A DNA stretch of 64,000 bases from Owenia fusiformis. Lineage: Eukaryota; Annelida; Polychaeta; Sabellida; Oweniidae. Below are positions 5,813 to 59,641 of the stretch, in pieces; within the stretch, counting starts at the first letter, position 1; each line of letters opens with the position of its first letter. The translations under genes were made by a program, and so were the position numbers. The notes beneath the pieces were generated by a model. It worked only from the letters and a program-made list of their open reading frames with translations, was not told the DNA's origin and searched no databases. The stretch covers positions 350,513-414,512 of the forward strand of contig CAIIXF020000004.1 in the NCBI GenBank assembly GCA_903813345.2. The letters run 5' to 3'.

Positions 5813-5933
5813 AACCTGGCAAGTTGTAAAGATGCCCAACTCCAAGCTTGTTCCCTTCAGACTCAGTCCCAATGAAGAGGCACGCATCATTAAACAAGAA
5901 AGAGAGAGAAGACGCAAAGAAAGGATTATACAG
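5813..5933 (+). CDS. CEP295: CEP295 exon 2 (start codon exon)
   Basis: The acceptor is ATTGTTTCAG before 5813. After 19 nt of 5' UTR the ATG at 5832 opens 34 codons: MPNSKLVPFRLSPNEEARII, then KQERERRRKERIIQ. The block LSPNEEA followed by a charged ERRR helix is the conserved N-terminus of CEP295 proteins. The donor is CAG|GTTTGT, phase 0. Confidence 0.93.
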
Positions 5934-20900: not shown

Positions 20901-23900
20901 GACCTGGGGGTGTTTTACTTGCCCAAGGCATATTCCCGTCAAGTTTAAACCCACTTGGTGTGACATCATCGTAAAAGTCATTTGATTCCTTCTCATTGTA
21001 GAAATCATTCAGACTCTGTATACCCATAGCTGGTAGAGGGGTTTGGCCAAGATTCAACACTTGGAGTTGGAAATGGAAATGTAGGTTGAGGTAATATTCA
21101 TCATGTTTGTCACTTTCAGTGAGAAATAGATACTCCAAGTCAGAGTATGGTGTTGATTCCCCTCTTGCCATAGAGCCAAGGCCAACCATTGTGAACTTAC
21201 ATGGTGGTGGTCCACATACAGAGACACTTTGCTCCATCAGCTCTGCACTGAATTCCTTTACAAACTTTGTGTTCTGCTTGCAGATTAACTGAGTCAGTTG
21301 ATTCATCCTTTGTTCAAATCGAGGTTTTCTTTTGTTCTCAGGTTTTGGGCATTCCTCCCAAACTTTTTCAAGTCTTTTCACTCTGACTTTTAGATGGCGT
21401 CGATATTTTTCCAACTCATCAATTTTTGCTTGGTTAATGCCTTTTTTCACGCAGTAAATATTTCCCCCTAGGATGTTGTCACAATATAGTGTTTCAATTT
21501 GCTCGCATGATGTCACAATATGTTCGCGGTACCTTTGATGATTGGGCCCCTTCTCTCCTGCATTTTCCAGACGTACAAAGGCAGCATTATACAGAGCTGT
21601 AGCATTTACGTAATGTTCTCTTTCTGTTGACTTATCAATGCATCGCCTTTTGTAAGTGTCACCCATTAGAGTCAAAATGATGCCTTCCTTTTCATGATCC
21701 CGAAAAACTTCTTTCCGTGAAGAACATAGTTCTTTTGCAAAGTTTTCTTCTATTTTCTGAAGTGGATCCATTGTATTGTCTGTTTTACTGCAAATATAAA
21801 ATGAATCTGATTTACTAATATAATTTTTATATAGATTAAGGCAACTAAAGATTGTGATGTTGTAGTGGAATAGTGAAGTATGACAAGGAAAAACAATTAA
21901 AAATCTTTCTTAAAAATTTAATTTTATTACTCCCATATAAAATCTGCATCTCTAACCTTATATTTTGATATCATTTAATGTATCACATGAACTGACTTAT
22001 CTAAATGCTCAAAATATCTTTTCTTTCTGTATATTTTTTTAAAAAATGGCCACCACTTATAAATAGGATTCCCCGATATATAATCACGCCAGGACAAGCA
22101 TAGTACTGAAAGTTTTTTTGTGTTGATTCAAGTCAATCAATATGTTTTTTGTTGTGTTCATAAAGTTACAGTGACATATGAATATTTGAAAAAAATATTT
22201 GTTTAGTGCTTGAAAGCATTTTTGATACAAGAAGTTCACTTATTGAATAAATGTTCACATTTTTAAACACATTCCAAAGTATAAAAGTTGAATATAAATT
22301 AGTACTGTGCAATGTTTTTTCACGAATGGGATTTCAAAACAGGCAAAACAATGACTTGTGTGCCAGATTGATCCTGGCAGGAAGTATCCGCAATCATAGA
22401 ACTCTGCTTTAACAAATCATTTTTCATTCATTGAATTTCCAGCTGTATACAAGGGATATCTCAGAAGTTGCTTGAACTTCATGTGTTTACTTTTACTGGC
22501 AGCCTATGCTAGTCTTAATAAAGCTTGGGAAATCCCTAGTATGCAACCATTACACTTTTAGACCTAAAATGATGTTTGAATAATAATCCTATTAAAATGC
22601 GTTTTGTGACTTTAATGTTAGTCGATCAATTCTTTTGTGTGTGTCACTAGTGAGTCTTCATATACAATAAGTTACCTTACTGACCTTTGCCATTACTTTG
22701 ACTGGTATATACAACCTTGACATTCTTCAATCTGGATAGTACTATGTGTGTGTTACTAGTGAGTCTTCATATACAATACCTTATTGACCTTTGCCATTAC
22801 TTTGACTGATATATATAACCTTGATATTCTTCAATCTGGATAGTACTATGTGTGTGTTACTATTGAGTCTTCATATACAATACCTTATTGACCTTTGCCA
22901 TTACTTTGACTGATATATATAACCTTGATATTCTTCAATCTGGATAGTACTATGTGTGTGTTACTATTGAGTCTTCATATACAATACCTTATTGACCTTT
23001 GCCATTACTTTGACTGATATATATAACCTTGACATTCTTCAGTCTGGATAGTACTATGTATTGTGTGTGTTACTATTGAGTCTTCATATACAATACCTTA
23101 TTGACCTTTGCCATTACTTTCACTGATATACATAACCTTGACATTCTTCAATCTGGATAGTACTATGTGTGTTACTAGTGAGTCTTCATATACAATACCC
23201 CATTGACCTTTGCCATTACTTTCACTGATATACATAACCTTGACATTCTTCAATCTGGAGAGTACTATGTGTGTGTTACTAGTGAGTCATCATATACAAT
23301 ACCTTACTGACCTTTGTCATTACTTTGACTGATATATATAACCTTGACATTCTTCAATCTGGATAGTACTATGTTTGCGTTGCTAGTGAGTCTTCATACA
23401 CAATACCTTATTGACCTTTGCCATTACTTTGACTAATATATATATAACATTCTTCTATCTTGATACTAAAGCCTCTGACCTTTTAAATATTTAATTAGCT
23501 TCTGACCTGAGGTGGTATTTGACCTGTTGTGATCTTTGACTGTGCCTGACCTCTTACATTATTATTTCCATAATTTAGTTCAACCAATTTGGTGGCACTC
23601 GATTTAAGTCTAGGAGGCTGTCTTACCTTAACTACTCATTGTGATATTGGTTATCCAAAAATGTTTATATACAAAAATAGGATATAACATATACATTATA
23701 TGATAACGCAATCTAGAAATGAATCAAATAATAGTTAAGACATGATAACCCAGTTTTATAAAGAAACATTAAAATGATTTGGAAAAGAACAATTGTCTAT
23801 TATCTCAAAGTTGTTAATGCAATATAAGTAATAACAATGTTTGCTGTATTAGACACCTTTCAAAAGAATATTGAAGAAAATCCACCATAATTGAGAAGAT

Positions 23901-26900
23901 GTTCTGAAACTCATTATATTTTAGTATAGTATAGTATTTTAAAACCTTGTCTTTTATATTTAATAGACTTGAACATTCCTCAGCAGGCCTTTATTTAAAA
24001 TATGACAACTTTTATTCATTTCATTGTGAAAAATCAATACATGTATTCGTAAAGTTTTATGTATTTCTTCTATTAAATCAATAAAGCGAGACATATTTCA
24101 AGTCTAGTATTTCGTGACCTTATACTTACCATTATCAAAATGCTCCAGAGCTTAGTTCATGAAATGTCTGCCTGCATATTTTCCTAAAATGTCTACCAGT
24201 CTGTATTGGGGTTCCCCGATATATGCAATCGTACTAGGACAAGCATAGTGCTTAAACATTTTTGTATTGATCCATTTTTTGCTGTGTAAAAAAGTTGGCA
24301 TGAGATATACAGTATATACTGGGAGAAAATATTTGTTTTCTGTTTGAAAAGAAGTTCACTCTACATAATTGAATTGATTTTCAGTTAGAATACAACTAGG
24401 AGTACAAAAGTTGAATTCAAATGAGTTTTGTGCAATATTTCTTCACGAAAGGGAATTCAACGCCAGCAAACCATTGATTTGTGTGCCAGTTTTGTCATGG
24501 CAGGAACTTTCATGAACACAAAACTCTAATTTTAACAACTAGTTTTCATTCTTGGTATTTCCAGCTATATACAAGGGGTGTCACAGACATTTAAAGTTTA
24601 GCATGAGCTTTGACCTTTGTAATATTTTATTAACAATTGTGACCTGTTGTGACCTTTGAACTAAGGTGATCTTTGACCTCAGGTGACCTGGGGAGCTCAT
24701 TCTCCTTCACAAGACCATGTACAGTAAAACCTGTCTAATCTGAACACCCATGGGACCAGCCAAAAGCGTTCAAATTGGCAGGTGTTCAAATTTCAAGGAT
24801 TTTGTTGGTCGGAGGGGGATTTTCATTGTTCAGTACACTATATTGAACAATTAATACTAAGTCAGAAAACAATACATGTTGTTGATGTGTTCATTCTTCA
24901 ATATGTTTATAGCCTATATGCTATGTTTTATTTACATTTTGAACAATTTCATTATTTTAGTAAAAATAACTCTTATATTTTGGCAAAGACTTTGTAATAC
25001 ACTGTAGAAGTATATGATAGTCTTGTACAAAATCTTATGCTAATCATATGACTTATCTCATATTATGGTTGAAATTTTTCTCTTTCTTGTGATATAATCC
25101 TGTCTGCAAATGTGTCTGTGTTGTCTTTGTGATTATAAAACATTTACTGATTGAATCTCAGCTATCATAACAGACCCATGGGATATAAAACAATTAGGAC
25201 CTGTTCATAATCCAAATCAAAAATATTCAGTTCATTTACAATAAGGATAAACCAATTATCTCCCAGATTCTCACCTTTCTCTTAATCCAAATCAAAAACA
25301 TCCAGGTAATCTCTAATAATGATAAATCAATTATCTTCTTGATTCACACCTTTCTCTTAATCCAAACATAAAACATTCAGTTCTTTTCTAATAGGATAAA
25401 CCAATTAACTCCTGTATTCACACCTTTCCAAAACATCCTGTTGTTTTCCACAAATTAGGGATGTCTCTGAGACTAAATAAGTTAATTAGGACAATATTGT
25501 TGCTTTGATTACATTGTATATATGTAAAGATAAATAACAACTTTAAAATTGACTCAATATCGTGACTATTGTTGAAATGTCCAGACATTTGATTTCTGAT
25601 AAAAATGTTCAGATTAGACAGGTCACTTTTTCAAATTTGGTTGTTCACTGTTCAGATTAGGAGGTGTTCAGATTTCAAGTTTTTTTTAACATGGGAGTCT
25701 ATGGAAGGAAAAAATGGGACCAAAAAAAGAGTTCAAATTGGAAGGTGTTCGGATTAGCCAGGTGTTCAGATATACAGGTTCTACTGTATACCAATTTAGT
25801 GCACTAAGATATCACTCTAGAAGGATATTGATAGATAAACTAACAGAATAAACAAAATGTTTACAGTGTTAATTATCCCACTGAACGAAGTTCGAGGGGG
25901 ATATAGAAAAGGCGTCCATTCGTCTGTCCATCCGTTCGTACGTCGATCCGTTCGTCCGTCCGTTCGTTTGTCTGGGCAATAACTCAAATACCAGTTGACA
26001 GATTTCATACAAATTTTATAGGCTCATGCCTTATGGGTGTAGGACCTCCGCTCGAGAAGGGATTTTCAATATGGTCACTTAGTTTAAAATCGCGGCCATT
26101 TTTCTGAAAACATATAATCATTGATAAATCAAATACTATTGGATGGATTTGGCTCAAATTTTATATGCTGTTGCCTGGGTATAAAAGAGCCTTGCTCAAA
26201 AAGACATTTTCAAGATGGCCACCATATTTCAAAATGGTGGCCATTTTTCGTAGAAAAACGTTATCTTTGATAAGGCAAAGACCATTCAATGGATTTGGTT
26301 CAAATTTTACATGCTGATGCCTATGGACATACGAGTTCTGCTTTAGAACTAGAAGGGAATCTCAAGATGGCAGCTAAATTTCAAAATGGCCGCCATTTTT
26401 CATAAAAGAACCTAACCTTTGATAACTCAAATACCAGTTGATGGATTTGGTTCAAGTTCTATATGTTGTTGCGTAGAGACAAAGAAGTTCTGCTCAAGAA
26501 GACATTTTCAAGATGGCCACTGAATTTCAAAATGGCTGCCACTTTTTGGAAAAAAACATAGTTATTGATAACTCAAATACCAGTGGATGGATTTGGTTCC
26601 AATTTTATATGCTGATGTTTAGGGAAAAAGGAGATCTGCTTCAGAAGAAATTTCAAAGGCGCCAGCTGAATTTCAAAATGGCTGCTATTTTTCATAAAAA
26701 AGGTTATCTTTGATAACTCAAATCCCATTGGACAGATTTACTTCAAATTTTATATACTGATGCCTAGAGATAAAGGAGCTCTGCTTGAGAAGAAATTTTC
26801 AAGGTGGCTGCTATTTATCAAAATCTCCGCCATTTTTCATTCATTTAACATGTAATCCTAGATAAATTAAGTTCCAGTTGACGGATTTGGATTAAACTCT

Positions 26901-29900
26901 ATATGCTGAGGCATTGGGAGATAGGAGCTCTGCTAAAGAAGAAATCTTTTGATTCAAGTTGTTTTCATCTGTTAAAAGTTCAGGAAGATGTGTTGAGAAC
27001 TACATTCTTTGCTGTCATTGGGAGTTGTTTTGAGACTTCATTGTAATTGTAAAAACTTTGATTCAAGTTGTTTTCATCTGTTAAAGTTCAGGAAGATTAC
27101 ATTCTTTGCTGTCATTTTTGACTTAATATTTATGATGTTTTAATTTGAATTAAATTTAAGACTTATAAGTATATTATATATTATTTGTAAATTACTATTT
27201 ATTCAACCACCAATTTGGTGACAATAGATTTCCTACATTCTTCAGTAATAAAATCAAAGTTGCATTTACACAATATTTGATTAGTGAAATTATTAATTTA
27301 CAGACATTTTAGCAAATATCGTCCAGCTAATGATTTTACTATTTTGCATTTTTACATTATGTCAAGTAACAATTAAAATTCAATATTACTTCGTTCTTTT
27401 CAACATGTTCTGGACCTTCTCAGCCTCTTGGATTCTACCCAGGACCATATAGCAGGTCAAGAGTCTTTCAAGAGTCTGTTTGTATTCCTCACTTGTCTCA
27501 CCAAACAACTCTGCATAGTCTTCTTTCAGCTTTGGTAAATATTCCAAGGCAGTTTTATTATCTCCAATATTGATTAGTGCATCAGTGTATAATTTACCTA
27601 CATATGCCCTTTCATATTCAGGCAAATTGTTGTAAGGCTTGAGTTTTGTCATATCTTCAAAGCAAAGCACTACACTGTGATAGTCTTGTAATCTACTATG
27701 ACAATGCAGTTTAATATACTTCAGATAGAGAAGAAGACCAGGAATATTTGGTGGACATACTTTGATAGCAGCATCAGTCTGTTGTAGAGCAGCTGAATCA
27801 TTCCCCATTTTAAGGTTTGAAATTGCTGCAAACATATCCTGAGTTGTGAGATTATTTGTCATATTATTTGTTTGTATTGGCTTTTTATTCATGAGAATGT
27901 GTGCTGATTTCAAGTCTCCTTTTACTATACGACAAAATTGTGCTAGGTCATAACAATTATTCTGTCTGATATTCCCAGCTAGAACATGCCAAGATTGCTC
28001 TAGAGATTCTATCATTTCTTCTGGCTCATAAATGATATCATCAGGTCCAATACATGTCTTTATTTTGACCTGCAATATACACACTTTGCATTGGCAATAC
28101 ATAATCATTGATGATGGTTTTGTAGCCATTCCAGATTTAATACAATAATTAATGCTTTGTAATCTCAGTAAGTAGCTCTGCATCAGCCTGATATGTGGAA
28201 TCCTAAGACATTCTCGCAAGACTTTAGATGGTGATAGAGAGTCCATGCAGTATGCATTATTTTCTTGATGGTAAGGGTTTAGTTCAATTATTGATTCATG
28301 TTGTTGGTTCTTTGTACAGTATGTAAGCAATCTTATGCCTATGGCAACGTTGATCATGAAGTAAAGGTGTGAACACTGCTCTGATGTTAGTATAGATTGC
28401 CTCTGTAGCTCTCTGATGATTTCCCATGGGGATGTGACATCAAGCATATGTAGATCTTTCATATTGTTTATGAAGGTGGATGGGAACCTATAGTAGTCCT
28501 TCTTTACATTTTTTGAAGACCAATCATCGAAGTTAAATTTGTACTTCTGACAATCTTCATGCATTCGTTCAAGGCATATTTGTCTAATAAACTCAGGGTT
28601 TTCACCCCTCCTAGTCGTATTAATCTGCTTTTGGAAGTCAAGAAATAGATTCTCATCTCCCAAGATTCTTGTTGCCGTGGATATGATGGTTGCCAGGTGA
28701 TAACCATGTTTTTTATCAGCCTCAGTTGTACTCAGCTCTGCCATGTATGTTGGCGTGCCAATAAGCTTGAGGGGTGGCTTCAATTCGGTTGCCTTATGAC
28801 CTGGAGGTGTTTTACTTGCCCAAGGCATATTCCCATCGAGTTTGAACCCACTTGGTGTGACATCATCGTAAAAGTCATTTGATTCCTTCTCGTTGTAGAA
28901 ATCATTCAGACTCTGAATACCCATAGCTGGTAGAGGAGTTTGACCAAGGTTCAGCACTTGTAGTAGGAAATGGAAATGAAGGTTGAGGAAATATTCATCA
29001 TGTTTGTCACTCTCAGTGAGAAATAGATACTCCAAGTCAGAGTATGGGGTTGATTCCCCTCTTGCCATAGAGCCAAGGCCAACCATGGTGATTTTACATG
29101 GTGGTGGTCCACATACAGAGATACTTTGCTCCATCAGCTCTGCACTGAATTCCTTTACAAACTTTGTGTTCTGCTTGCAGATTAACTGAGTCAGTTGATT
29201 CTTCCTATGTTCAAATCGAGGTTTTCTTTTGTCCTCAGGTTTTGGGCATTTATCCCAAACCTTTTCAAGTCTTTTCACTCTGACTTTTAGATGGTGTCGA
29301 TATTTTTCCAAATCGTCAATTTTAGTTTGGTTAATGCCTTTTTTCACACAGTAAATATTTCCCCCTAGGATGTTGTCACAATATAGTGTTTCAATTTGCA
29401 CGCATGATGTCACAATAAGTTTGCTATACCTTTGATGGTTATGCCCCTTTTCTGGGGCATTTTCCAGACGTACAAGAGCAGCATTATACAGAGCTGTAGC
29501 ATTTACATAATGTTCTCTTTCTGTTGACTTATTGATGCACCGCCTTTTGTAAGTGTCACCCATTGCTGTCAAAATTATGCCTTCCTTTTCATGATCCCGA
29601 AAAACTTCTTTTCGTAAAGAACAGAGTTCTTTTGCAAGGTTTTCTTCAATTTCTTCAATTTTCTTAAGTGGATCCATAGTCTTGTCTGTTTTACTGCAAA
29701 TATAAAATGATTTACTAATATAATTTTAATATAGATTAAGGCAACTAAAGATTATGATGTTGCAGTGAAATAGTGAAGTATGATAAGGAAAAGCTATGAA
29801 AAATCTTTCTTAAAAATTTAATGTTATTACTCCCATATAGAATACCTGTGTTACTGTAGTGTGAATGTGAACCTTTGGAATAGTGTTATTACAACCACTT

Positions 29901-32900
29901 ATAGCCTATTTTAACTTTTTTATAATTCGTAGAATTGAAATTGAAGACTTATATCTCAATGTGCCTTTGTAAAATTCTGTATGTCAACATTTGTTTTCTT
30001 TTGTTGCATACTTTATGTAAGAAATCAATCTTATTGTAAATTTTCATATTTAATTTTCTCGCCTCTGATCTGCATCTCTAATCTTATCTTATATTTTCGT
30101 ATTGTTTAATGTATCACATCAACTTACTTATCTAAATGCTCATTCTTTCTGTATATTTTTTAAAAAAATGACCACCACTTATAAATAGAATTCCCTGATG
30201 TATAATCACGCCAGGACAAGCATAGTACTGAAAGTTTTTTTCGGATTCAAGTCAATCAATGTTTTTGTTGTGTTCATATAGTTAGCATGACATATAAATA
30301 TTTGAAAAAAATATTTGTTTAGTGCTTGAAAGCATTTTTGATAGAAGAAGTTCACTTATTGAATAAATGTTCACATTTTTAAACACATGCCAAAGTATAA
30401 AAGTTGAATATAGATTAATACTGTGCAATGTTTATTCACGAATGGGATTTCAATACAGTCAAATCATTGACTTGTGTGCCAGTTTTATTGTGGCAGGCAC
30501 GGACTGTCACCATAGAACTCTGCTTTAATAAATCATTTTTCATTCATTGAATTCCAGCTTTATACAAGGGAGATCTCAGAAGTTGCTGGAATTTCATGTC
30601 TTTACTTTTACTGGCAGCCTATGCTAGTCTTAATAAAGCTTGGGAAAAATTCATAAGATTTTGTTCAGTGACCTTTCCTACCTCCTACTTTTAGCTATTT
30701 TTCAGTCACATTTTCAGAGGGCTGAAAAGGTTATTTCATCATGTTTAGGGTCATTCTGACCATGAACATTTTGATCCTGGACATGTAAATTGTATGTTGA
30801 ACTAGTTGAATTGACTGGAGGTCAAAACAGAACTCTGTTATCTTTGTCCAAAAATGTCTAAAAATGCAAAATTTTTTGTCACTTCCTGTTTTGTCATTTC
30901 CTGCATGGCACCTTAATAATTTTTTTTGTGTTGTAAAAGAGTTCGATGTCGGGCCTCGTGCAAAATTTTTTTTTCGAGTCTTGTACATGCTCGTACAAAA
31001 CAACAATTACGAGCATCGTACGAGCTTGTACAGGCCTTGAAAACAAGCTCTTAACGAGCCTGTAGGAGGATTGTGCTCCTTTTTGCTCGTAGTAACTCGT
31101 TATTCTCGAGGCTCATACGAGCTCGCACGGGGCCTGATGTAATTTGCATGTGTATTGAATAAATAAAGGGAGACATTTTCATGTCTAATATTTCGTGATC
31201 TTATACTTACGATTATCTCATTGCTCCAGTGCTCAGTTCATGAAATGTCTGCCTGCATATTTTCTTAAAATGTCTGCCAGTCTCTAGTGGGGTTCCCCAA
31301 TATATGGAATCACGCTAGGACAAGCATAGTGCTTAAACATTTTTTATTGATCCAATTTTTGCTATGTAAAAAAACTTGGCATGAAATATAAATACTGGGA
31401 GAAAATATTTGTTTTCTGTTTGAAAAGAAGTTCACTTGACATAATTGAATTGATTTTCAGTTAAAATACAAGTAGGAGTATAAGAGTTGAATTCAAATGA
31501 GTTTTGTGCAATATTTCTTCACAAAAGGGAATTCAACGCCAGCAAACCATTGATTTGTGTGCAAGTTTTATCATGGCAGGAACTTTTATGAACACAAAAC
31601 TCTAATTTTAACAACTTGTTTTCATTCTTGGTATTTCCAGCTATATACAAGGGGTGTCAAAGAAGTTGCTGGAATTTATCATTACTCTTTATATACAAAC
31701 AGCCTTTGTTAATAATGGGAGTTGGTAAATTCCTAGAATGCAACTTTCACCTTTTATTTACATAATAACCATTTTTGGAATTGTTTGATCTCTAAGTGTG
31801 ACCCTAATGGTGATCTTTACCTTCATATTTACATTTTGTTAATGACACTTTATATGCAATTCCTCTCTAACATTTGCCATTAATGGTAATTTTGACATTT
31901 AAAGTTTCACATGAGCTTTGACCTTTGTAATATTTTATGAACAATTGTGACCTTTGAACTGTGGTGATCTAAGATGACATTTGACCTGGGGTGACCTTTG
32001 ACCTGAGGTACCAATTTTGCGCATATATATCACTTATCACTTTAGAAGGATATTGATGGATGAAGTAATGAAATAAACAAATACAACAGTACTTTACAGT
32101 GTTAATTAAAGCATAAATTTACCGAGGCGCAACTTTATGGACGTTGTAGATCACTTCCACTGATGTGTCCATCAAGTAACAATGTACAATGATTATGATC
32201 AATAATAAAAAAAAATAATGCATTACAGATGCTGTCTTGAAAAAACTTCTGACTAAAATCAAGAGCCAAAGAGATGACTGGCTGACAAGTTCAACTGATC
32301 AGATCCCTGAAGTTGAGCAAAAGCAGCAAGCCAAGCCAGAAAATGTCAAACAGAGTGTTGATGAAGTTATTGTAAAGGATGGACAATCAGCTAATGATAC
32401 TCCACAAATATCCAAAGAGAAATCACTTGAAGTGCAGGGTTCTGAGATTTCAGGTTCTTTTAACTTACAAGCTCTTTAATGATCTCGTAATCCAGGTTAA
32501 ACATTGTATTTATGTTAATGTATTTCATTGGAGCTAACTTGGATTTTACAATTAAATTTGAAACTAACAAAATTCTTGCCAGTATTGATACATTATTATA
32601 ATATATACATATATATTCTTTTAGATGTTGATGTTTATTATCCCATCGAACGAAGTTCGGAGGGATATAGGGAACGCCTCCGTCCGTCCGTACGTACGTA
32701 CGTCCGTACGTCCATCCGTCCGTCCGTCTGTCCGTCCGTCCGTCCGGGCAATAACTCAAATACCGTTGGCCCGATTTTGTTCATATTTTGTACACATATA
32801 CCCTATGAGGGTTGAAGTTCTGCTCGAAAGCCGATTTTCAAAATGGCCGCTCATTTCAAAATGGCGGCCATTTTAGTGCCGATTTTACAGTAATTTAGGT

Positions 32901-35900
32901 GTAATATGTAAAACTGTAATAGCAATATGTTTTAAATGTAAAAAAATTATAAAGGACATTAATAATGCTACAAATGTAGATATTAAAGAAGCACATAGCA
33001 GCCATCTTGAAAAATGGCGGCCTTTACTCGTCATTTTACGATTTTTGCTATAACTCAAAAAATAGTGGAGCAATTTTGTTCATATTTGGTATGTGAATAC
33101 TATAAGCATTGCACACTGTCCTATGACACTTTTGGTAGAAGGCGGCCATTTTGAAAAAAAATTGAAAATGGCCGCCATTTTAACGTATTTTACTATAACT
33201 CGAAAAGTAGTGGAGCGATTTTGTTCATATTTGGTATGTGAATACTTTAAGCATGGCACACTGTCTTATGACACTTTTGGTAGAAGGCGGCCATTTTGAA
33301 AAAAATTTTGAAAAATGGCCGCCATAGGCCATTTTAATGTATTTTACTATAACTCGAAAAGTAGTGGAGTGATTTTGTTCATATTTGGTATGTGAATACT
33401 ATAAGCTTTTTTTTTTTAAAAAATGGCCGCCATTTTAACGTATTTTACTATAACTCGAAAAGTAGTGGAGTGATTTTGTTCATATTTGATATGTGAATAC
33501 TTTAAGCATGGCACATTGTCTAATAAAACTTTGGGGAGTAGTCGGCCATTTTGAAAAATGGCCACCATTTTTATGTGTGTTATTTTACAAGTACGTGTGC
33601 GATTTTTCAAAAATTTTAGAGGTGGCTACTTAAAAGCATATTATTTCTTCTGATGACAACTTGGCTAGTGAGCAACCATTTTGAAAATGGTGGCCTTTCT
33701 GGTGTGTTGTTTTATGATATTTGCTATTCGTTTGTAAAAATGCCAGCCATTTCTGTTCGATGGGATTCGCTACGCTTTGGCGTTGCCGTTGTTCTGGTTA
33801 TACAACTCAACCGCTCTTATTTTAAGGCAGCTTGTTGTTCAACATTGGAATGTTCATGTTTGTAAAAATCAACTTAGCATCTTAATGTCTTCATGTTTTG
33901 TTTAGATGCTCCTTAGGATCCCCAACTTCATAGTTTTAATATCTATATGATTGTCTTCTTCAGACACAGTCTCTGCAGATTCGATCTCCCAGTACCCAAT
34001 CTCCCAAAAGACAAGCTCAACAGTATCTCACCAGGCTGACTCCACTGTGTCACCTAAGGAGGTCTCCATGGAGTCTCAACAATCTGGCTCCACTGTGTCA
34101 GAGTACCCTATATCGGAGCAGGCAGTCACTGCAGTGTCTGATGGCAGAACAAACACTACAGAAAGACTTATAGAAACTGTTAGAAAATCACAAGGTAAAG
34201 TCATTTGAATTATGTTATTATTTTCAGTTCGGAATCTGAAATTGTTACTTATGAAAGGCAAAACGTACACTAGCTATAGTGATTTAGATTTGTTCATGAA
34301 AGCCCAAATGCATTGGTGATAATTTGTTTTATATGAACATACATTTGTATTACAGACCCATTCTCTCTGAGACAGCCCCATGATGATGCTATTGAAGTGT
34401 TAGAATCACTTCAGAGACATAACACTATAAACATATACATTTGTATTACAGACCCATTCTCTCTGAGACAGCCCTATGATGATGCTATTGAAGTGTTAGA
34501 ATCACTTCAGAGACATAACACTATAAACATATACATTTGTATTACAGACCCATTCTCTCTGAGACAGCCCTTAGATGATGCTATTGAAGTGTTAGAATCA
34601 CTTCAGAGACATAACACTATAAACATATACATTTGTATTACAGACCCATTCTCTCTGAGACAGCCCTATGATGATGCTATTGAATTGTTAGAATCACTTC
34701 AGAGACAAAACACTATAAACATATACATTTGTATTACAGACCCATTCTCTCTGAGACAGCCCTATGATGATGCTATTGAATTATTAGAATCACTTCAGAG
34801 ACAAAACACTATAAACATATACATTTGTATTACAGACCCATTCTCTCTGAGACAGCCCTATGATGATGCTATTGAATTGTTAGAATCACTTCAGAGACAT
34901 AACACTATAAACATATACATTTGTATTACAGACCCATTCTCTCTGAGACAGCCCTATGATGATGCTATTGAAGTGTTAGAATCACTTCAGAGACATAACA
35001 CTATAAACATATACATTTGTATTACAGACCCATTCTCTCTGAGACAGCCCTATGATGATGCTATTGAAGTGTTAGAATCACTTCAGAGACATAACACTAT
35101 AAACATATACATTTGTATTACAGACCCATTCTCTCTGAGACAGCCCTATGATGATGCTATTGAATTGTTAGAATCACTTCAGAGACAAAACACTATAAAC
35201 ATATACATTTGTATTACAGACCCATTCTCTCTGAGACAGCCCTATGATGATGCTATTGAATTGTTAGAATCACTTCAGAGACAAAACACTATAAACATAT
35301 ACATTTGTATTACAGACCCATTCTCTCTGAGACAGCCCTATGATGATGCTATTGAAGTAATAGAATCACTTCAGAGACATAAGACTATAAACATATACAT
35401 TTGTATTACAGACCCATTCTCTCTGAGACAGCCCTATGATGATGCTATTGAAGTGTTAGAATCACTTCAGAGACATAACACTATAAACATATACATTTGT
35501 ATTACAGACCCATTCTCTCTGAGACAGCCCTTAGATGATGCTATTGAAGTGTTGAATCAATTCAGAGACATAACACTATTAACATATACATTTGTATTAC
35601 AGACCCATTCTCTCTGAGACAGCCCTATGATGATGCTATTGAATTGTTAGAATCACTTCAGAGACAAAACACTATAAACATATACATTTGTATTACAGAC
35701 CCATTCTCTCTGAGACAGCCCTATGATGATGCTATTGAATTGTTAGAATCACTTCAGAGACAAAATACTATAAACATATACATTTGTATTACAGACCCAT
35801 TCTCTCTGAGACAGCCCTATGATGATGCTATTGAATTGTTAGAATCACTTCAGAGACAAAACACTATAAACATATACATTTGTATTACAGACCCATTCTC

Positions 35901-38900
35901 TCTGAGACAGCCCTATGATGATGCTATTGAAGTGTTAGAATCACTTCAGAGACAAAACACTATAAACATATACATTTGTATTACAGACCCATTCTCTCTG
36001 AGACAGCCCTTAGATGATGCTATTGAAGTGTTAGAATCACTTCAGAGACATAACACTATAAACATATACATTTGTATTACAGACCCATTCTCTCTGAGAC
36101 AGCCCTTAGATGATGCTATTGAAGTGTTAGAATCACTTCAGAGACATAACACTATAAACATATACATTTGTATTACAGACCCATTCTCTCTGAGACAGCC
36201 CTATGATGATGCTATTGAATTGTTAGAATCACTTCAGAGACATAACACTATAAACATATACATTTGTATTACAGACCCATTCTCTCTGAGACAGCCCTAT
36301 GATGATGCTATTGAAGTGTTAGAATCACTTCAGAGACATAACACTATAAACATATACATTTGTATTACAGACCCATTCTCTCTGAGACAGCCCTATGATG
36401 ATGCTATTGAAGTGTTAGAATCACTTCAGAGACATAACACTATAAACATATACATTTGTATTACAGACCCATTCTCTCTGAGACAGCCCTATGATGATGC
36501 TATTGAATTGTTAGAATCACTTCAGAGACAAAACACTATAAACATATACATTTGTATTACAGACCCATTCTCTCTGAGACAGCCCTATGATGATGCTATT
36601 GAATTGTTAGAATCACTTCAGAGACAAAACACTATAAACATATACATTTGTATTACAGACCCATTCTCTCTGAGACAGCCCTTAGATGATGCTATTGAAG
36701 TGTTAGAATCACTTCAGAGACATAACACTATAAACATATACATTTGTATTACAGACCCATTCTCTCTGAGACAGCCCTATGATGATGCTATTGAAGTGTT
36801 AGAATCACTTCAGAGACAACAACAAGAGCTTGAAGAACATCAACGTGATAGAAAGACTACAGAAGGACTGGCAACAGCTGGAATAGACCAACAACTAATT
36901 CAGCAGACTATGCGTGAACCTCATCCTATATTGGGAAAAACTGAGTCTGAGCAAAATATAGTGACTAATGATCAAATAACTAATGAATACAAAGCACATG
37001 AATCACCCCATAATAAATCCCCAGCTCATGAATCACCCCATAGTGAACCTCAACAAATAGACATCATCGACTTCTCAAAACTGAATGAGCAAAATGAACA
37101 ATTTGAGAAGATCAAGTCTCATCAGAGAGAAATCCTGGAGAGACATCGAATTATTGAGGAACGAGAACTTAAGAGAAAGGAAGAGGAGAGAAGACTGATC
37201 GAGAGTGAATCAACTGCAAAACAAGAAATTGATGAGATCAGAAAATATCAACAGTTGATTCTTGACCAGCATGCCAGGATTCAGTCGCAGAAGGATCAAA
37301 TTGAGAAACAAGGATTAGGTGTCCAAAAAGAATTCAAGAGTCAGTTTTTTCAAGACTTGCAACAACATCAAAATCAGTCATTACAACAAGAAGTACAACA
37401 ACAACAAGAAAGACAACAATGGAGTCCATTATCAGAAGACAGTAGTTTACAAATGACACCTCTAACCCCTGAGTTACAACCTGTGACCCCCAAATCAAAA
37501 ACAAGATCACCACTATCAGAGCATTCCCCATATGACCCTAAAAGATATGATGTTGAACATCACTATGATAATGAAGACCTTGAGGAAGATAGAGCTCAGC
37601 ATGGTTCATATAATATCCAAGCTCCATTTGAGATTTATGAAGATCAAACCACTGAACAAACACAAAAACAACAAGGTAATACAGAGCATGTCACTCTGGG
37701 GTATCCTCAGCAATTAGATACTGAAGAGACACCAGAAAGACACAGTGATCAACAGTTACTTAAAACAAGGCCATTTGATGAGTCACATCGGGCAATCACA
37801 AAGGAAAATACTGTGGTAGCTGACAAACAGTTTCCAAAGTTTGGATCGTCTAGTTTTGCTGATTGGGGCAAAGAAATGGAAAGATATAGACAGTCTACAA
37901 CACTAGCACCAAATCAGCCTGCCCCTGGTTTACAATATGAACACCCCAAATCACACACCCCTCAATTCAAACCTGGAGCCCCAAATTCAGTTACATTTGC
38001 TTCACCAAACAATCAGATATCATTTAATTCTGAGACAACTTCTCCATCCTCACAATATATCAGTCATATACAGAGGGATTCTGATTCACAATTAGAAGAT
38101 CCCAGATTGGGCCACCTTGGATTACAATCTGGGGACCCCAGATCTAGTTTTGTTGGGGAACCAATGAGATCATTTGAAGGTCTGTCTCAAGAAGAGATTG
38201 CGAGGATACAGAGATTACAACAACATCAAATGAAGCTGATTCAGAAGCACAAGGAAAGTGATGAGAACTTGAGACTGATTCAGAATATGATTCAACAGAA
38301 AAAACTGCAGCTTCAACAGACTTATGGTCCTACAACCACAAAGGAACCTCCAGTTCAACAAGGTTACTCCACACAAACTGATGATGTCATCAACAAGGAT
38401 GAGTTATCCATCCCACAAAATGATGACATCACAACAAGGGCTTTATATCAAAGACTGGAATCAGAAAGAAGACAGAAAGAAATGCGGCAACAACTTGATA
38501 GACTACGAATTGAAAAACAACAAATCTTAGAAAAAATAAAAGGCACCCCAGAGCCCCCAAAACACGCTCCACCACCCACAAGAAAAGCACCTTTAGATAA
38601 TGTGCAGTTTCATGAGCTAAGCACGATTCAAGAGGTTGAAACTCCTAAACCTGCTCAAAGATTTACATTGCCCCCATTTGACACTTCTTCTAGCGTATCA
38701 CCTGGTTCATCAACCGGGAATAGTTATGCCTCTCCAAGTGATAGACACCCCAGCTTTAACATACTTGACTCGGTAGGTGCAAATTTTAGAAAACAGGTAC
38801 AATTCGAACGTATGGATCAGGCACCAATAGTGTTAGCCACAGATACAAGCAGCGGAGGTACTCCAGATAATGGAAGAGCTGTTGATATTGACAGAGGGGT

Positions 38901-41900
38901 TACTCCAGAGAGTGGAAGAGCCACTGCAGACTCTGGATTCTACACCAAAACATTGCCTGAGCTCCAACAAGCATTAGAGAGGGAAATGAATAAAAAGAGT
39001 CCAACTGGACAGGGTCTCTACTCTGAATCTGATTATCAAAGGCAATTTCCCCAGCAGAGACCTTCCATACCACAAGCCACACTGAAACCTCCATCAATGC
39101 CCTTCCCTTCTGAACCAACTATGCATCAGGCTTCAGTAACAAATGCTCCATATCTGGGTGATGTATCTACTGGATATCCTCCCTCTCAATATGTTAACAC
39201 GTCTCAGCTCTCGCATAGTGACACACATTCTTTAAGGCAAGGAATCGAACAGACTTTCCAGGATAGTGCCACACAACCTTTCCAGCATTGGACTCTTCCA
39301 GAGCCCACCAGAGGGACCCATCTGTCCACAAGTGGAGGAAGCAGCCCTGAGAGCCCTCTATTGACAGATCCTGATGAACTGGTTGCCAAATATCTTGCCC
39401 AAGCTCAGCAAAAACGACAACTTGATCCTCATTCAGGAGTGCCAGAAGGAGGGATGATGTTTCATGGAAGAGCAGATGGAGGGATTTCAACACTTGGAAG
39501 AGCCAGGGGAGAGGGTGTTGGAGCATCATCCAATGGAGCAAACACCTCAACACATTTTTCTGATATTGCAGGTAAATCATTAACTTACCTTGTGTCATAT
39601 CTCCATTTTTGTATACCTTAGGGCATACATTTCATTATCTGATATTGCAGGTAAATCATTAACTTACCTTGTGTCATATCTCCATTTTTGTATATCTTAG
39701 GGTATACATTTCATTATCTGATATTGCAGGTAAATCATTAACTAACCTTGTGTCACATCTTCATTTTTGTATATCTTAGCGTATACATTTAATTATCTGA
39801 TATTGCAGGTAAATCATTAACTAACCTTGTGTCATATCTCCATTTTTGTATATCTTAGGGCATACATTTCATTATCTGATATTGCAGGTAAATCATTAAC
39901 TAACCTTGTGTCATATCTTCATTTTTGTATATCTTAGCGTATACATTTAATTATCTGATATTGCAGGTAAATCATTAACTTACCTTGTGTCATATCTCCA
40001 TTTTTGTATACCTTAGGGTATACATTTCATTATCTGATGTTGCAGGTAAATCATTAACTAACCTTGTGTCATATCTCCATTTTTGTATATCTTAGGGCAT
40101 ACATTTCATTATCTGATGTTGCAGGTAAATCATTAACTAACCTTGTTTCATATCTCCATTTTTGTATATCTTAGGGTTTACATTTCATTATCTGATATTG
40201 CAGGTAAATCATTAACTAACCTTGTGTCATATCTCCATTTTTGTATATCTTAGGGCATACATTTCATTATCTGATGTTGCAGGTAAATCATTAACTAACC
40301 TTGTGTCATATCTCCATTTTTGTATACCTTAGGGTATACATTTCATTATCTGATATTGCAGGTAAATCATTAACTAACCTTGTGTCATGTCTCCATTTTT
40401 GTATATCTTAGGGTATACATTTCATTATCTGATATTGCAGGTAAATCATTAACTAACCTTGTGTCATATCTCCATTTTTGTATATCTTAGGGCATACATT
40501 TCATTATCTGATGTTGCAGGTAAATCATTAACTAACCTTGTGTCATATCTCCATTTTTGTATACCTTAGGGTATACATTTCATTATCTGATATTGCAGGT
40601 AAATCATTAACTAACCTTGTGTCATATCTCCATTTTTGTATATCTTAGGGCATACATTTCATTATCTGATGTTGCAGGTAAATCATTAACTAACCTTGTG
40701 TCATATCTCCTTTTTTGTATACCTTAGGATATACATTTCATTATCTGATATTGCAGGTAAATCATTAACTAACCTTGTGTCATATCTCCATTTTTGTATA
40801 TCTTAGCGTATACATTTCATTATCTGATGTTGCAGGTAAATCATTAACTAACCTTGTGTCATATCTCCATTTTTGTATATCTTAGGGCATACATTTCATT
40901 ATCTGATGTTGCAGGTAAATCATTAACTAACCTTGTGTCATATCTCCATTTTTGTATACCTTAGGGTATACATTTCATTATCTGATATTGCAGGTAAATC
41001 ATTAACTAACCTTGTGTCATATCTCCATTTTTGTATACCTTAGGGTATACATTTCATTATCTGATATTGCAGGTAAATCATTAACTAACCTTGTGTCATA
41101 TCTCCATTTTTGTATATCTTAGGGCATACATTTCATTATCTGATGTTGCAGGTAAATCATTAACTAACCTTGTTTCATATCTCCATTTTTGTATATCTTA
41201 GGGTATACATTTCATTATCTGATATTGCAGGTAAATCATTAACTAACCTTGTGTCATATCTCCATTTTTGTATATCTTAGGGTATACATTTCATTATCTG
41301 ATATTGCAGGTAAATCATTAACTAACCTTGTGTCATATCTCCATTTTTGTATACCTTAGCGTATACATTTAATTATCTGATATTGCAGGTAAATCATTAA
41401 CTTACCTTGTGTCATATCTCCATTTTTGTATACCTTAGGGTATACATTTCATTATCTGATGTTGCAGGTAAATCATTAACTAACCTTGTGTCATATCTCC
41501 ATTTTTGTATATCTTAGCGTATACATTTCATTATCTGATGTTGCAGGTAAATCATTAACTAACCTTGTTTCATATCTCCATTTTTGTATATCTTAGGGTA
41601 TACATTTCATTATCTGATATTGCAGGTAAATCATTAACTAACCTTGTGTCATATCTTCATTTTTGTATACCTTAGGGTATACATTTCATTATCTGATATT
41701 GCAGGTAAATCATTAACTTACCTTGTGTCATATCTCCATTTTTGTATATCTTAGGGTATACATTTCATTATCTGATGTTGCAGGTAAATCATTAACTAAC
41801 CTTGTGTCATATCTCCATTTTTGTATATCTTAGGGTATACATTTCATTATCTGATATTGCAGGTAAATCATTAACTTACCTTGTGTCATATCTCCATTTT

Positions 41901-44900
41901 TGTATATCTTAGGGTATACATTTCATTATCTGATGTTGAAGGTAAATCATTAACTAACCTTGTGTCATATCTCCATTTTTGTATACCTTAGGGTATACAT
42001 TTAATTAGGGACCTTTTTATGTAAATTGTCATGCTTGAACCAATGTCAAAATTATTCAGTTTTGAATATTGGAAAAGGTTACCTTGTATGAATATTTCTA
42101 AATTAAGAATTGTTTCTTTGAAGATACTTCATCTACTTGTATGATACCTGTACTTAAATAACACACTGTGGACAAATACATTTAATGTATTGCAAAGTTT
42201 CTAACATTTCCCACATGCACTGTGCACTCATAGTGATAATGTTTCTGTTTCATAAAAGGTTCATTAGAAGATGGGTTCCATCCTGACACAAGTGGTATAA
42301 GTCTGCAGTCCACAGCAGAAAAACAGAAGCCTGGGAGACTATTCACACTGGACCATACACAGTCTACATTAGGTAGGTTTGGCTTTGGGTTTTGGTATTT
42401 TTTGAATAGGGAAAATGACGAAAAGCAAATTATTTGAGATTATAATTTTAACATATAAATCATCGCAAACTTCCTCTTAAGAATTTATTGTTTTCTGCCG
42501 AATGAAATATATTTTCAGTAAAATTGGACTGTACACTATCAAGTCAAGTTGTTTTAGACTTAATAGTTCAGAGGCCTGTTTTTTAAAATATTGAAAATCA
42601 AGATTCTTTAATAGTTATTGTCAGTGCCATTATTTCTTTTGTATAATCATGAAATTTGAATATTCAGCTTCAGTTGGCACCCAGTTAGGGAAATTTCCAC
42701 AAATACAGAAAATTCCACCAAATATGGAAAATTCCAGCAATCTTTCACAAGTATGTCTTTTGGATATGCTGTTAGTGTTACTGTGTCTCCTGTTGTTTGT
42801 TATAGGTGATGAGCTGAGTCAATATCCATTAGATGAGACAACAACCTCCATGCAGAGTCAGAAACAACCTCTCCAAAGCAGGTATCAGCAAGGTACTGTC
42901 ATACTCCCTGGCAGGCAGAGGTCACCTAGGGAACACCAAGATGCTGAAAGGTAAGTGGAGTGCAATACTAAGATGGTGCTGTTTGAATGATTTGGCTTAC
43001 AAACTTGGTCAAACATAAACCATGGACTAAACGATTGATTTATGAGACTAAATAATAGAGAAATGCATGCAGGGCTTTTTGTAGAATATAAAAAAAAATT
43101 CTGCAAAGTTTATGAAAACCAAAATTTTGCAGTTTTTCTGCAGCGACGCGGAATCACAGAATTCTAGTATCTGTGAATAACGAAAAACACTAATTCAATA
43201 CCTGACTCTATTTTATAATTCTTGTTCAATATTAATTTTTGCATTTTGAAGATTTTCTTAATTCTTTTCATACCCTTGCTTTAATGATCACACATACATT
43301 TCAATTCCTCCAGTTTCAATGCAATGTACAACTTGATGCAGTATTTGGTTGTTTCGATGTTAAATCACTTTGAAAATATATATGTCGTCTGTGGTAAAAT
43401 GTATATGTGTTGTAAAATTGTCTCTGCCTTTCCAGATTAAGACATGTCTACAAACCTTTAGATGAGACTCAGGAAACACATACTTCAATACTGAGTGACC
43501 AACATACAATGTCCAGTATAGACAGTCCAAATACAATAGTCGAGAAATACCTCTCTCAAGCCAAAGCTCAACAACAAGCTATGTCTCAACAAGGCAAGTC
43601 ACAACAACAAGGTATGACACAGCAAGGTATTACACAGCAAGACATGTTACAAGCACAAAGCAGAATATTTGCAGACCAGAGACAAAGAATGAACATTAGT
43701 GAACAACCAGAGAGTTCATATCAACAACTACCAAGTGATATATCATCCCTGTCTAGCTATGTTGATAGATCCCTTGGAAGACAGCAAGATGTGTCACAAC
43801 AAGGCCAGTCACCACAAAGTATGTCACAGCAAGGCCAGTCACCACAAAGTATGTCACAACAAGGTATGCCACAGCAATACCTGTCGCAAGCCATTTCTCA
43901 GAAAGGCATGTTTCATCAAGGCATTTCACAACAAGGTATGTCGCAGCAAGGCCAGTCACCACAAAGTATGTCACAGCAAGGCCAGTCACCACAAAGTATG
44001 TCACAGCAAGGCCAGTCACCACAAAATATGTCACAACAAGGTATGCCACAGCAATACCTGTCGCAAGCCATTCCACAGAAAGGCATGTTTCATCAAGGCA
44101 TTTTACAACAAGGTATGTCGCAGCAAGGCCAGTCAACACAAAGTATGTCACCACAAGGTATGTCACAGCAAGGCCACAAACGGCATAGTTTTGGAGCTAC
44201 CCTTGATGACATCTCTCAAGGTCAAATTCATTCAAACCTAGGCTCACCTGGGTCTAATGTTATATCAAGTGGTGACGATGTAAGACTCAGTCAGTACGGA
44301 GCTTATAGTGGAGCACGCCCAATTGATGACTCCACTGGTGACCCTATACAACAATCCACTGAATTAACTCCAAAGGTATCAGATTTATTGATGACTGGAT
44401 TATCAAAAGTACAAACAGAAGCCACAGATCAGCTGAATTTATATAGCAAGATGCCTCAACCATCCACACATTTATCTTCCCTTTCCCCAGAAACCTCTCA
44501 ATATCAACCATCCTCACATTTAACTTCCCATTTCCCAGAATCCTCCAAGAACAGGGATGCAATGTCACTGCCACCTATTGGTGAAGCAAGAGATGATGTA
44601 CATATTGCTCTGTATAGTGGCCACACTGATACTACATATATGTCACTTCCCCCAACTAGAACACAATATCACACTGGTTATATGGGGCAACCACAGGTTC
44701 TACCCCAAGCTGCAGAGTGTGACACCCCTCAAAGATTAGGAGGAGTAGGGAGAGATAATATGGATGGTAGGACCACAGATCAATCTATTTTAAAAGGACA
44801 CAGTATATCACAATACCCCAATATTGACAGCTCATTTGTAAGTTCCTACTCAGGAAGTCTCAGTCAGTATCCAGTAACGGAAATTTCCACTGATGTGGAA

Positions 44901-47900
44901 AATACCATGAGACAGACAACTCAAGGTCGTTATCAGCCAAGGGAATTTTCCACTGATAGACACCAGAGGACAATGCTCTCTGAGCTTTCCACCATCACTG
45001 GAGCTAGACTGAGTGACATAAATGTCACAAATGATGAGTTTCAACCCCTACAAACACGATCCAAATCAAGTACTCCAAGTAAACAACCAGGCTCTGACCA
45101 CTTCGCTCCACTGCCAGAGGTCTCCTCAAATAGCACCCCATCTAGTAAAAACACAAGTGACATAGAACAATTTAGAATAGAATCTCAGAGTAATATATCA
45201 CTGGCATTCTCAGAGTCTACCATACACTCAGATGACAGCCAATCAGATGCTGGCTCCTTGCATAATTATAGAGGTGAATGTAAATCAAGCACTCCATTGG
45301 CTGATAAATCAAAATGGCTGCCACTTGAGCCTGATACTCAGATGACATGTGACACTCATGTGACAAGTGATACTAGCAGGTGGACAACTCTAGGTGGTAG
45401 CTCATTGGAGGTAAGAACTATTATAACACATAAAAGCAATTTCTTGACAAATGAGTAATAATTGTTGATATAAATGCAAAATACACTATAAATCAATCAC
45501 TTATTTTTTCACCAATTAAGCATCATGTATAGCTAATTATGTTATTTGAAATTAGTGAAATAAATTAAGAGCCTGGGACCCGTTTTTGTACCGTTCTTAC
45601 TAACGAACGTTCGTAAATCCATTGTTTTATTTGCGAATTAAACAAAGTTGCATTTTCGTAAGATTTCGTAAGTTACAAACGATTCGTAAATTTACGAAAA
45701 TAGTGACGTCATGCCTGTTTTCGTTCGTAGATTTAATACCACCTCTGACCCTTTCGTAACTTTGCGAATGGCCTCTTATTTATTTATATTGTGATTTGTG
45801 ATGTTTTGTCATTCTAAATCAGAGAACACAAAGGGCAACACCGTTATCAACGTATTATCAACCTATTTCTATATCTATTTTAGTACTTTTCATGGAATCT
45901 TTATTTTTATAAAATTCTTATTGTATGACTTTGGTTTTATTATTTTGATCAGCCCTGTTGGTTGTACTATCTGTCCTGACAACTGTGGAATATGACGTCA
46001 ACCTATTCGTAAATCTTACTCTAAACAATTGGAAAGTTACGAATGACTTACGAAAGCGTACAAAAATGATCCATTCGCAACTTTACGAATTCGTAACTCA
46101 TTCGTAACTTTTTAAATATTTACAAATCTACGAATTGCGAACGTTCGTTACTACGAACGGTACAAAAACGGACTCCTGGAAATTTCAAAGTTGCAAAAAC
46201 ATGAAGTATAATAGCGTCAAATATACAATTAATAGTTTAGGACAAAGTATAATTATTAGTGAGGAATGTAATAATGAATGATAAAACAAACATTTTATTC
46301 TATCCAAGTATACATGTATATATATATGTTGCACTTTCAATAAATCTGCAAGGTATTTCCTTAGCTCCTTGGACTTCAGAAAATCCATTTGCTAAATTTA
46401 TATAATATATTAAGAATGATCATGTAATCACTTTATGGAATGAAGTATTTGTTTTATTCCTCACTGTTAAACTCCTTAGTTAATGCTTCATCCTCCATAA
46501 TCAAATGATTATTTCATCCATGTTTGATTTATAATATGCATTCTTTGATAATAGGTGACGAGGGAGGCTACTGGTATATCAGAAGAGCCGGATCTGACTT
46601 TTGTAACTGTCACATCTATAGATGACCATCTCTCAGTCATGGAGGATTATGATGAGGAGGCAGACACCACTATCACAGATCAACCTAACACCCCTGTCAT
46701 GGGACAATCTAAAACCCCTGTCATGGATCAACCCAACAGCCCTGTCATGGGCCAATCTAACACCCCTGTCATGGATCAACCCAACACCCCTGTCATGGAT
46801 CAACCCAACACCCCTGTCATGGATCAACCCAACACCCCTGTCATGGGCCAATCTAACACCCCTGTCATGGGACAACCCAACACCCCTGTCATGGATCAAC
46901 CCAACACCCCTGTCATGGGCCAATCTAACACCCCTGTCATGGGACAACCCAACAGCCCTGTCATGGATCAACCCAACAGCCCTGTCATGGGCCAATCTAA
47001 CACCCCTGTCATGGGCCAAACCAACACCCCTACCATGGGTCAACAGTCTCATATTGATGCTAACACCCCTATGATAGATCCCACAACAAAGAATAGACAA
47101 AATGATATTTCTCTGTCAGTGAATGAAAATTTGGGGAATATTAGCAAAACTACTGAGAATCTTTCACTTATGTCTTTTGAGCAACATGAACTTTCATCTA
47201 TGGAAGTTTCCGTCACTCTAAATAACAGTGAAAAGCCAAGTAATAGTGAACAGACATCAATATGGAATACTCAGACTCAGGACAGTACTGATGTTGATAA
47301 ATATCATAATCAAAAGGAATTTTCCTCAGGGGAAATTTCCATTCCTCAGGACAATGGAGAAAAGCCAGGTAGAATTGAACAAACCTCAGTTTGGGAGTCC
47401 CATGAAAGCACGGGTGTGAGAGAAAATTCAGGGGAAATTTCCATTACTCAAAACAATACTGGTAACCTTAGAAATTCTTGTGATAGCACAAATGCTAGAG
47501 AAAATACAAAAGACAATGACTCTACTGAACATTCTAATGGGAGTAGGACTCTAAAACTGAATCCTGTTGTTGACATTAAGATAGATGATAATACCCAGCC
47601 TAGGGATAATAACACTGATGTTCAACCTGGTAACACTGCAAAGGCACCAAGGAATGTTTTCCAGGCAGGGCAGGGAAAAGATAAGCGGCCAGGACTCCGC
47701 GCTAGAATCAATGAAATGAGAGATAGTGACAACAGGAGAAAACTTCAAGGTATTAGTTTTCCTTTTCATGCTGTTTTTTAATGCTAAATGTTTTTGGTTT
47801 TTCCCAACATAAACTTTTAAAATCCATGAATATAAGTTACCTTAAGAAACAGTTTATAGCCATGTTTGCATTGTGAACGACAATTGAAACAGAAATCTTT

Positions 47901-58800: not shown

Positions 58801-59641
58801 GGAAAATTCAAATAAGCGCGGGAAAACTTTTAAAGCCAACCTTGAAATTACAGTTATATATTTAGTCATAAGATAATTTAACAATTGACATCAAATTCTG
58901 AGAAATTTTGACGAGGCACATAACTTGGACATTCGGATATATGTGTTCTTCAAATGTACATCATCAAATCATCATTCATTCTCCAAGCATATTCGCCTCC
59001 ATTTTTACGATACTATTACACAATCGTAGTTGAAACAATCAACCAACTGGAGATAGCACGTATCATTCTCAAGGCAGAGGTACCCCTGTCGTTCTAATGT
59101 AGCATGGGCATTGGGTTGAAACAGCCAATTCATTAGAGAATGCTAGCCAATTTCTATAAATAATCATACATCAGTATATAGGAAGAGGAAAGTCATTAAT
59201 TCATTCGATCTGCTAGCTGACAGTCAGCATATTACAGAAGGATTAATTACGATAGGCTATTCCTAGGATTAATTGCCATAGAACTACATATGTTATCTGA
59301 CAATAAGACTCTGAGACTGGATATCATGCAACATATAATCAATAGAAACATCTAGTGTAAAACCTGTATTATTTGTTGAAGACGGAGAAATGTCATTCTG
59401 TGTTCCGACTCCGGGTGGATAATACATATTAATATAAGGGCCAGGTATTCATTTTAAAGGGCCAGGTACCAGGGACTGGAGGTAGTCGACCATGTCAGAT
59501 AACTTCGATGAAAATGATGCAAACCCTGGAAGCGATTTCACTAAATGCATGCACAATTACCAAGTTCGGATTATATCTCCCTATTTAGTTGTATACTATA
59601 TCTAGTAGAGTGCGTGGAATGGAAGGTAGTCTTTGAGCAGG
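55851..59641. other. Intergenic region, no gene recognised
   Basis: No frame with family features on either strand. Frames up to 103 codons (57,023-57,580) show no conserved motif. A short local duplication (CACTCCCCTCCATAA) occurs at about 58,304-58,345. The ankyrin gene promoter presumably lies in the last kilobase, but I see no clear TATA box. Confidence 0.5.

Follow-up and report, generated by a model that had tools for sequence, protein, structure and literature searches.

Which splice site is taken when a gene offers many equivalent ones? This question is raised by a 64,000-nucleotide (nt) stretch of the genome of the annelid Owenia fusiformis (contig CAIIXF020000004.1, positions 350,513 to 414,512; hereafter the window), where a gene that we assign to CEP295 by homology carries 26 successive 3' splice sites (acceptors) before a giant exon 13, and 31 5' splice sites (donors) behind it. 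A sequence-only reading of the window had proposed that acceptor choice alone could yield a protein of variable length. Our analysis favors a different answer. We consider it likely that the repeats are boundary-spanning minisatellites of the kind named "mirage", which are removed together with the intron, and that the exon-proximal site wins.

Twenty-six equivalent acceptors before exon 13

The features needed to follow the argument are these (all on the forward strand; TRF, Tandem Repeats Finder):

5832..52070, +, CEP295 gene model: 19 coding exons, open reading frame (ORF) of 2753 amino acids (aa) plus stop, introns all GT-AG
33964..34194, +, exon 12: ends in ...CACAAG, the final G being the first base of a split codon; its donor, GTAAAG, begins at 34195
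34339..36818, +, acceptor-spanning array: 25.8 units of 96 base pairs (bp), TRF, 97% matches
35508..35602, +, unit 13 of this array: 95 bp, also with substitutions; real or an assembly error
36755..39571, +, giant exon 13, 2817 nt, spliced as in the public protein with acceptor 26 and the first donor

The model, obtained by joining GT-AG exons, starts at 5832 and reaches its stop in the last exon; its exons are labelled E1-E9 and E11-E20, as dictated by the exon 12/13 numbering of the sequence-only reading. Each array unit comprises about 31 nt of intron tail and 65 nt of exon head. In an exact scan TTGTATTACAG directly precedes ACCCATTC 26 times, with the last intron bases at 34355, 34451 and so on to 36754, so that the 26 acceptors in a row reported earlier are confirmed by the scan and by TRF. 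The statement that each of them leads to the same Asp also holds, as exon 12 leaves a G and all 26 acceptors supply AC. The description of the sites as phase-matched needs qualification. Spacings between acceptors are 96 bp in 24 of 25 cases and 95 bp in one; due to the 95-bp unit 13, acceptors 1-13 are out of frame with the giant exon and only acceptors 14-26 share its frame, for which the text of the earlier reading, if not its title, had allowed. That 96 is a multiple of three is correct and unremarkable, because only one of the four junction-straddling arrays of the gene (units of 121, 96, 79 and 145 bp) has this property.

The last unit continues straight into exon 13, and the first is preceded by different intron sequence with the same 17 nt immediately upstream of the acceptor. 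Read forward, the consensus unit has one open frame out of three. A chance origin of the 26 copies is not at issue, since they form a homogenised tandem array: there are 10 distinct forms among 25 units, and the block of units 6-10 is identical to the block 20-24, which fits what unequal exchange would leave. Variable sites are not distributed differently between the exon-derived part (7 of 66) and the intron tail (1 of 30; P = 0.43).

The public protein P0001, to which residues 130-1661 of our model (1532 aa) are identical with neither gap nor mismatch, joins exon 12 to acceptor 26 and ends exon 13 at the first of the 31 donors. It contains a single DPFSLRQP, and NTINIYICIT, the peptide encoded by the intron tail, is absent. 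Because this public model uses acceptor 26 and the first donor, both arrays at exon 13 are removed as intron. P0001 is a partial gene model; it uses the outermost sites at exon 13, and the exon 2 acceptor and the last exon lie outside its span.

Splice sites were scored with a weight matrix built from the gene's other acceptors, whereby the 18 authentic ones were scored leaving each out. Acceptors 2-26 all score 11.48 and acceptor 1 scores 9.38, compared to a range of -1.88 to 12.19 for the authentic sites. The 65 nt that follow acceptors 2-25 differ from those after acceptor 26 by 0-3 bases, with the exception of unit 13. As acceptors 2-26 are equal in score and followed by near-identical sequence, local strength cannot explain acceptor 26. 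On the donor side, 30 of the 31 sites score 10.27 and one scores 9.45. Position, not local signal, thus singles out acceptor 26 and the first donor.

Two positional rules are described in PMC9225289, according to which either the site nearest across the intron wins (intron definition) or the site nearest across the exon wins (exon definition), with the switch between the two at a flanking-intron length of about 200-250 nt. At both sides of exon 13 the public model obeys the exon rule. In line with exon definition, 16 of the model's 18 introns exceed 250 nt, if acceptor 26 is taken as the end of the one preceding exon 13.

A plausible course of events would start with a short stretch, composed of the intron end and the start of exon 13, that was tandemly duplicated and grew to 26 copies, probably via unequal exchange or slippage. 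The copy that touches the exon body may win through recognition of the whole exon as one unit by the nearest pair of sites across it, possibly helped by sequence of the exon body; such recognition would override the preference for the shortest intron. Splicing to acceptors 14-25 would then amount to in-frame noise, and use of acceptors 1-13 would give early-stop transcripts expected to decay.

Decoy sites and sister arrays

All 26 acceptors were translated. Acceptors 14-26 (13 of 26) are in frame and give products of 3137 down to 2753 aa, corresponding to 12 to 0 extra units; the arithmetic of the sequence-only reading, 0-12 extra repeats of 32 aa in a full-length protein, is therefore borne out by translation. 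Acceptors 1-13 run into a stop, with products of 980 down to 596 aa. Three further arrays of the gene straddle a junction:

39559..42007, +, donor-spanning array at the exon 13 donor: 31 units of 79 bp, 31 copies of GTAAATCATTAACT
6348..6716, +, acceptor-spanning array at exon 2: 3 units of 121 bp, exon starts at 6415, 6536 and 6659
51603..51994, +, acceptor-spanning array at the last exon: 2.7 units of 145 bp, exon starts at 51615, 51760 and 51905

In the 79-bp array, CAG precedes 30 of the 31 copies of GTAAATCATTAACT and AAG precedes one. A stop at 39619-39621 lies ahead of the second donor, and the first donor alone keeps the frame. Five of the 31 donors were translated (the first four and the last): the first gives the full-length protein and the other four give an identical product of 1515 aa, which holds for all thirty later donors because the stop (ORF end 39621) precedes the second. 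Among the exon 2 acceptors the third alone is in frame and yields full length, the other two stopping at 40 aa. The last-exon acceptors are all in frame; the third gives 2753 aa, and the first two give 2729 aa, 24 aa short and ending in KAKH. Hence in the three other straddling arrays the full-length protein comes from the exon-body-touching copy only. Short C-terminal isoforms are conceivable, because the last-exon decoys end in the last exon and decay is not expected.

Three more arrays begin or end close to a junction:

49979..51444, +, 32 units of 46 bp, beginning 17 nt past the exon 19 donor
8175..8900, +, 22 units of 33 bp, beginning 7 nt past the exon 5 donor
49374..49861, +, 51-bp array (merged from several TRF rows that overlap), its end 15 nt ahead of the exon 19 acceptor

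The 46-bp units carry 8 nt of the exon 19 donor, GTAGGACT, and a fraction of 0.002 of 500 shuffles reaches the score of this match. Compared to their junctions, the 33-bp units (exon 5; 0.48 of 500 shuffles reach the score) and the 51-bp units (exon 19 acceptor; 0.55 of 500) match no better than shuffles. The 33-bp array has one plus-strand and three minus-strand frames open, since its unit is a multiple of three without stops.

For the question whether arrays are concentrated at junctions, the set was defined by hand from TRF (period at least 20, score at least 250, overlapping rows merged with one period kept), resulting in 13 arrays in the gene. Four of them straddle a junction, a further three come within 25 nt of one (a margin picked after the distances had been seen), two lie inside coding exons 16 and 17, and four are elsewhere in introns. 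By eye, exon 16 (43792-44174) holds an in-frame coding minisatellite of Gln-rich units of about 10 aa, and exon 17 (46664-47044) one of PNTPVMGQ-like 8-aa units.

The outcome depends on the null model. When whole arrays are placed randomly, the overlap of 4 of 13 with a junction is matched by 4.17 expected (P = 0.65), which speaks against a bias; within 25 nt, 7 of 13 are found vs 4.35 expected (P = 0.09). Once the two exonic arrays are removed, this null gives P = 0.55 for overlap (4 of 11) and P = 0.043 within 25 nt (7 of 11). If instead single founder units are placed, 0.82 overlaps are expected for 13 arrays (P = 0.006) and 0.78 for 11 (P = 0.005). We prefer the founder-unit null, because every unit carries the junction. 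Without the three arrays of a 19-kb intron it yields 0.94 expected overlaps vs 4 of 10 observed (P = 0.0099), and 1.50 expected within 25 nt vs 7 of 10 (P = 5e-5), the observed 7 being whole arrays and the null single founder units. Taken together, the junction bias of arrays in CEP295 is suggestive. That minisatellites in Owenia are born preferentially at junctions by a junction-tied process, as seems to be so in amphioxus, is a tentative extension which we hold to be somewhat less probable than its opposite. Such birth could, for example, reflect breaks at transcription-linked structures, or selection sparing only those duplications that the spliceosome can remove.

Alternative readings and counter-evidence

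The alternative that survives best is the one proposed initially, namely that acceptors 14-26 are used, in a regulated manner or randomly, to give CEP295 with 0-12 extra 32-aa units. The equal strength of acceptors 2-26 and the preserved frame of half of all acceptors speak for it, as do boundary repeats in human duplicated genes, which reportedly give rise to alternative splicing (PMC2812944). The one public isoform found, in contrast, has no extra unit, and the decoy copies of the sister arrays cannot make a full-length protein. Moreover, in the amphioxus mirages, which span 5' and 3' junctions, regular splicing is reportedly undisturbed, with cryptic use thought possible (PMC3087553, PMC3902484). 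The units themselves give no indication of coding constraint: across 24 of them (1-25, unit 13 excluded) there are nine distinct changes, seven nonsynonymous and two synonymous (six and two, if TAT to TTA is taken as one change and not as two), with an expected nonsynonymous fraction of 0.788 (P = 1). The repeat ORF, used as a protein query, had no match among proteins of about 234-745 aa, the range visible to it, and no protein with more than one unit is among the matches listed for a query of 1633 aa, for which proteins of about 0.55-1.75 times that length were covered and the 7994 candidates sharing most words were scored. Pfam matches of the raw repeat ORF, to 14 families, were rejected as repeat artefacts, since no single stretch passes by itself. 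A length-variable CEP295 is thus possible but unsupported, with some evidence to the contrary, and we judge it improbable; low-level use of acceptors 14-25 is possible.

A second alternative, which we regard as still less probable, takes the array as an exonic coding repeat: acceptor 1 would be used, the 95-bp unit would reflect a null allele or a mistake in the assembly, and all 26 units would be present in the protein. Acceptor 1 offers the shortest available intron (161 nt) and is thus favored by the intron-proximity rule, and units 1-13 and units 14-26 each have an open frame throughout. Single-base errors are possible in the published Owenia assembly, which is described as PacBio-based with Arrow and Racon polishing (PMC9977687). 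The single unit in P0001, the truncated product of acceptor 1 as sequenced, and the lack of constraint among units argue against this possibility.

That the array length merely reflects collapse or expansion in the assembly is very improbable: near-identical units are hard to assemble, and in the amphioxus globin study one mirage had a draft assembly that was considered aberrant (PMC3087553), but the units here differ, other junctions show this pattern with units of their own, and the reported read N50 of >25 kb exceeds the 2.5-kb array, if the window stems from that assembly (PMC9977687).

Several observations weigh against the reading that we prefer, removal of the arrays with the intron in favor of the exon-proximal site. 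P0001 is one partial gene model and not a read. Short reads align ambiguously in arrays of such units. The published Owenia annotation, from which P0001 may originate, combined RNA-seq with ab initio prediction, merging evidence from RNA-seq, Trinity, Augustus and PASA (PMC9977687). An exon of 2817 nt is an odd unit for an exon-centric choice, and the classical intron-nearest rule predicts acceptor 1. Enhancer sequence beyond unit 26 is hinted at by base composition only, with a purine share of 0.65 in the 31 nt after unit 26 vs 0.52 after a decoy unit. The constraint test comprises nine changes and has little power. Finally, a human case shows that such a repeat can have consequences. The variable number tandem repeat (VNTR) in intron 18 of ABCA7 has a 25-bp unit that includes a splice donor; retention of one unit accounts for only about 2% of isoforms, which is in favor of our reading, but skipping of exon 19 is reported to grow with VNTR length, and in 90% of BA10 brain samples the canonical transcript is exceeded by the alternative ones combined (PMC5954066). 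Similar to the exon 13 donor array, each ABCA7 unit starts with donor bases, one-unit retention being the use of the next donor; in contrast to CEP295, ABCA7 is affected on the donor side only and has been measured at the RNA level.

The gene, its relatives and known boundary repeats

The N-terminal homology and a C-terminal ALMS motif together identify the predicted gene as CEP295. With the first 1633 residues as query, the best match is P0001 ("unnamed protein product, partial [Owenia fusiformis]"). Among the 102 matches listed, relatives in Lingula, Branchiostoma and many vertebrates are named CEP295; one is named as Owenia (P0001, a one-member cluster) and four without a name are 40-45% identical. 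N-terminal conservation is seen against a Mytilus protein, with 49% identical residues across 26% of the query (E = 2.8e-103). The ALMS motif (PF15309) scores 30.7 bits vs a cut-off of 27 in the C-terminal 126 aa obtained with the third last-exon acceptor; it falls below this cut-off with the first decoy acceptor (24.1 bits) and with the last exon by itself (19.0 bits). A local Pfam scan of P0001 gave no family, although the protein search lists PF28375 for it. Searching with the C-terminal half returned P0001 and one weak algal match, and no public model of the last exons. The gene thus resembles its mollusc, Lingula and amphioxus relatives at the N-terminus and carries the ALMS motif at the C-terminus; it differs from them in the repeat-unit peptide, for which the 11 relatives aligned offer no clear equivalent (highest local score elsewhere 62 vs 242 to itself, without a shuffle control).

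Inside the 19-kb intron two long minus-strand ORFs, 19423-21909 (828 aa) and 27386-29725 (779 aa), look alike by eye, the former with a match to the DUF294 nucleotidyltransferase family. A single long ORF with ankyrin repeats (59630-61051) lies downstream of CEP295. A minus-strand ORF at 3887-4489 resembles, by eye, the end of a reverse transcriptase of a retrotransposon lacking long terminal repeats and has no Pfam match at 0.1. Rfam, at the gathering threshold, gave no match in the whole window.

The closest known systems are the amphioxus mirages of Adh3 and of the globins BflGb6 and BflGb9 (PMC3087553) and of lancelet PGBD5 (PMC3902484). As in these, units span exon-intron boundaries (4 of 13 arrays in the gene), both boundary types are duplicated with their splice signals around exon 13, and the inner units of the acceptor array are homogenised. 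The Owenia case differs in its annelid host, in having four straddling arrays in one gene, and in its 26 and 31 copies with intact sites, compared to 6 and 3 units in two BflGb6 haplotypes. Human duplicated genes offer a further parallel, with internal tandem repeats at their exon-intron boundaries that are likewise minisatellites and reportedly alter splicing, novel introns also having been proposed; they are smaller (mean unit of 30 bp, four copies) and come with transcript evidence (PMC2812944). Among the open-licence papers listed we found no mirage or boundary-repeat case in Owenia or another annelid, which is weak evidence of absence.

Mirages, which under that name we found described in amphioxus only, would hereby be extended to an annelid and to an unusual scale, with relevance to the idea that new introns can arise by tandem duplication. 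Preceded by 26 equal acceptors and followed by 31 near-equal donors, exon 13 of CEP295 constitutes a natural experiment on splice-site choice; in the public model the exon-proximal site is taken at either end, opposite to the classical intron-proximity rule. Earlier work on competing sites used in vitro constructs and naturally occurring pairs of near-equal sites (PMC9225289); exon 13 could serve to test exon against intron definition without engineering. If the junction-biased birth of minisatellites is true, CEP295 would be a test bed for the rule by which the spliceosome chooses among identical sites.

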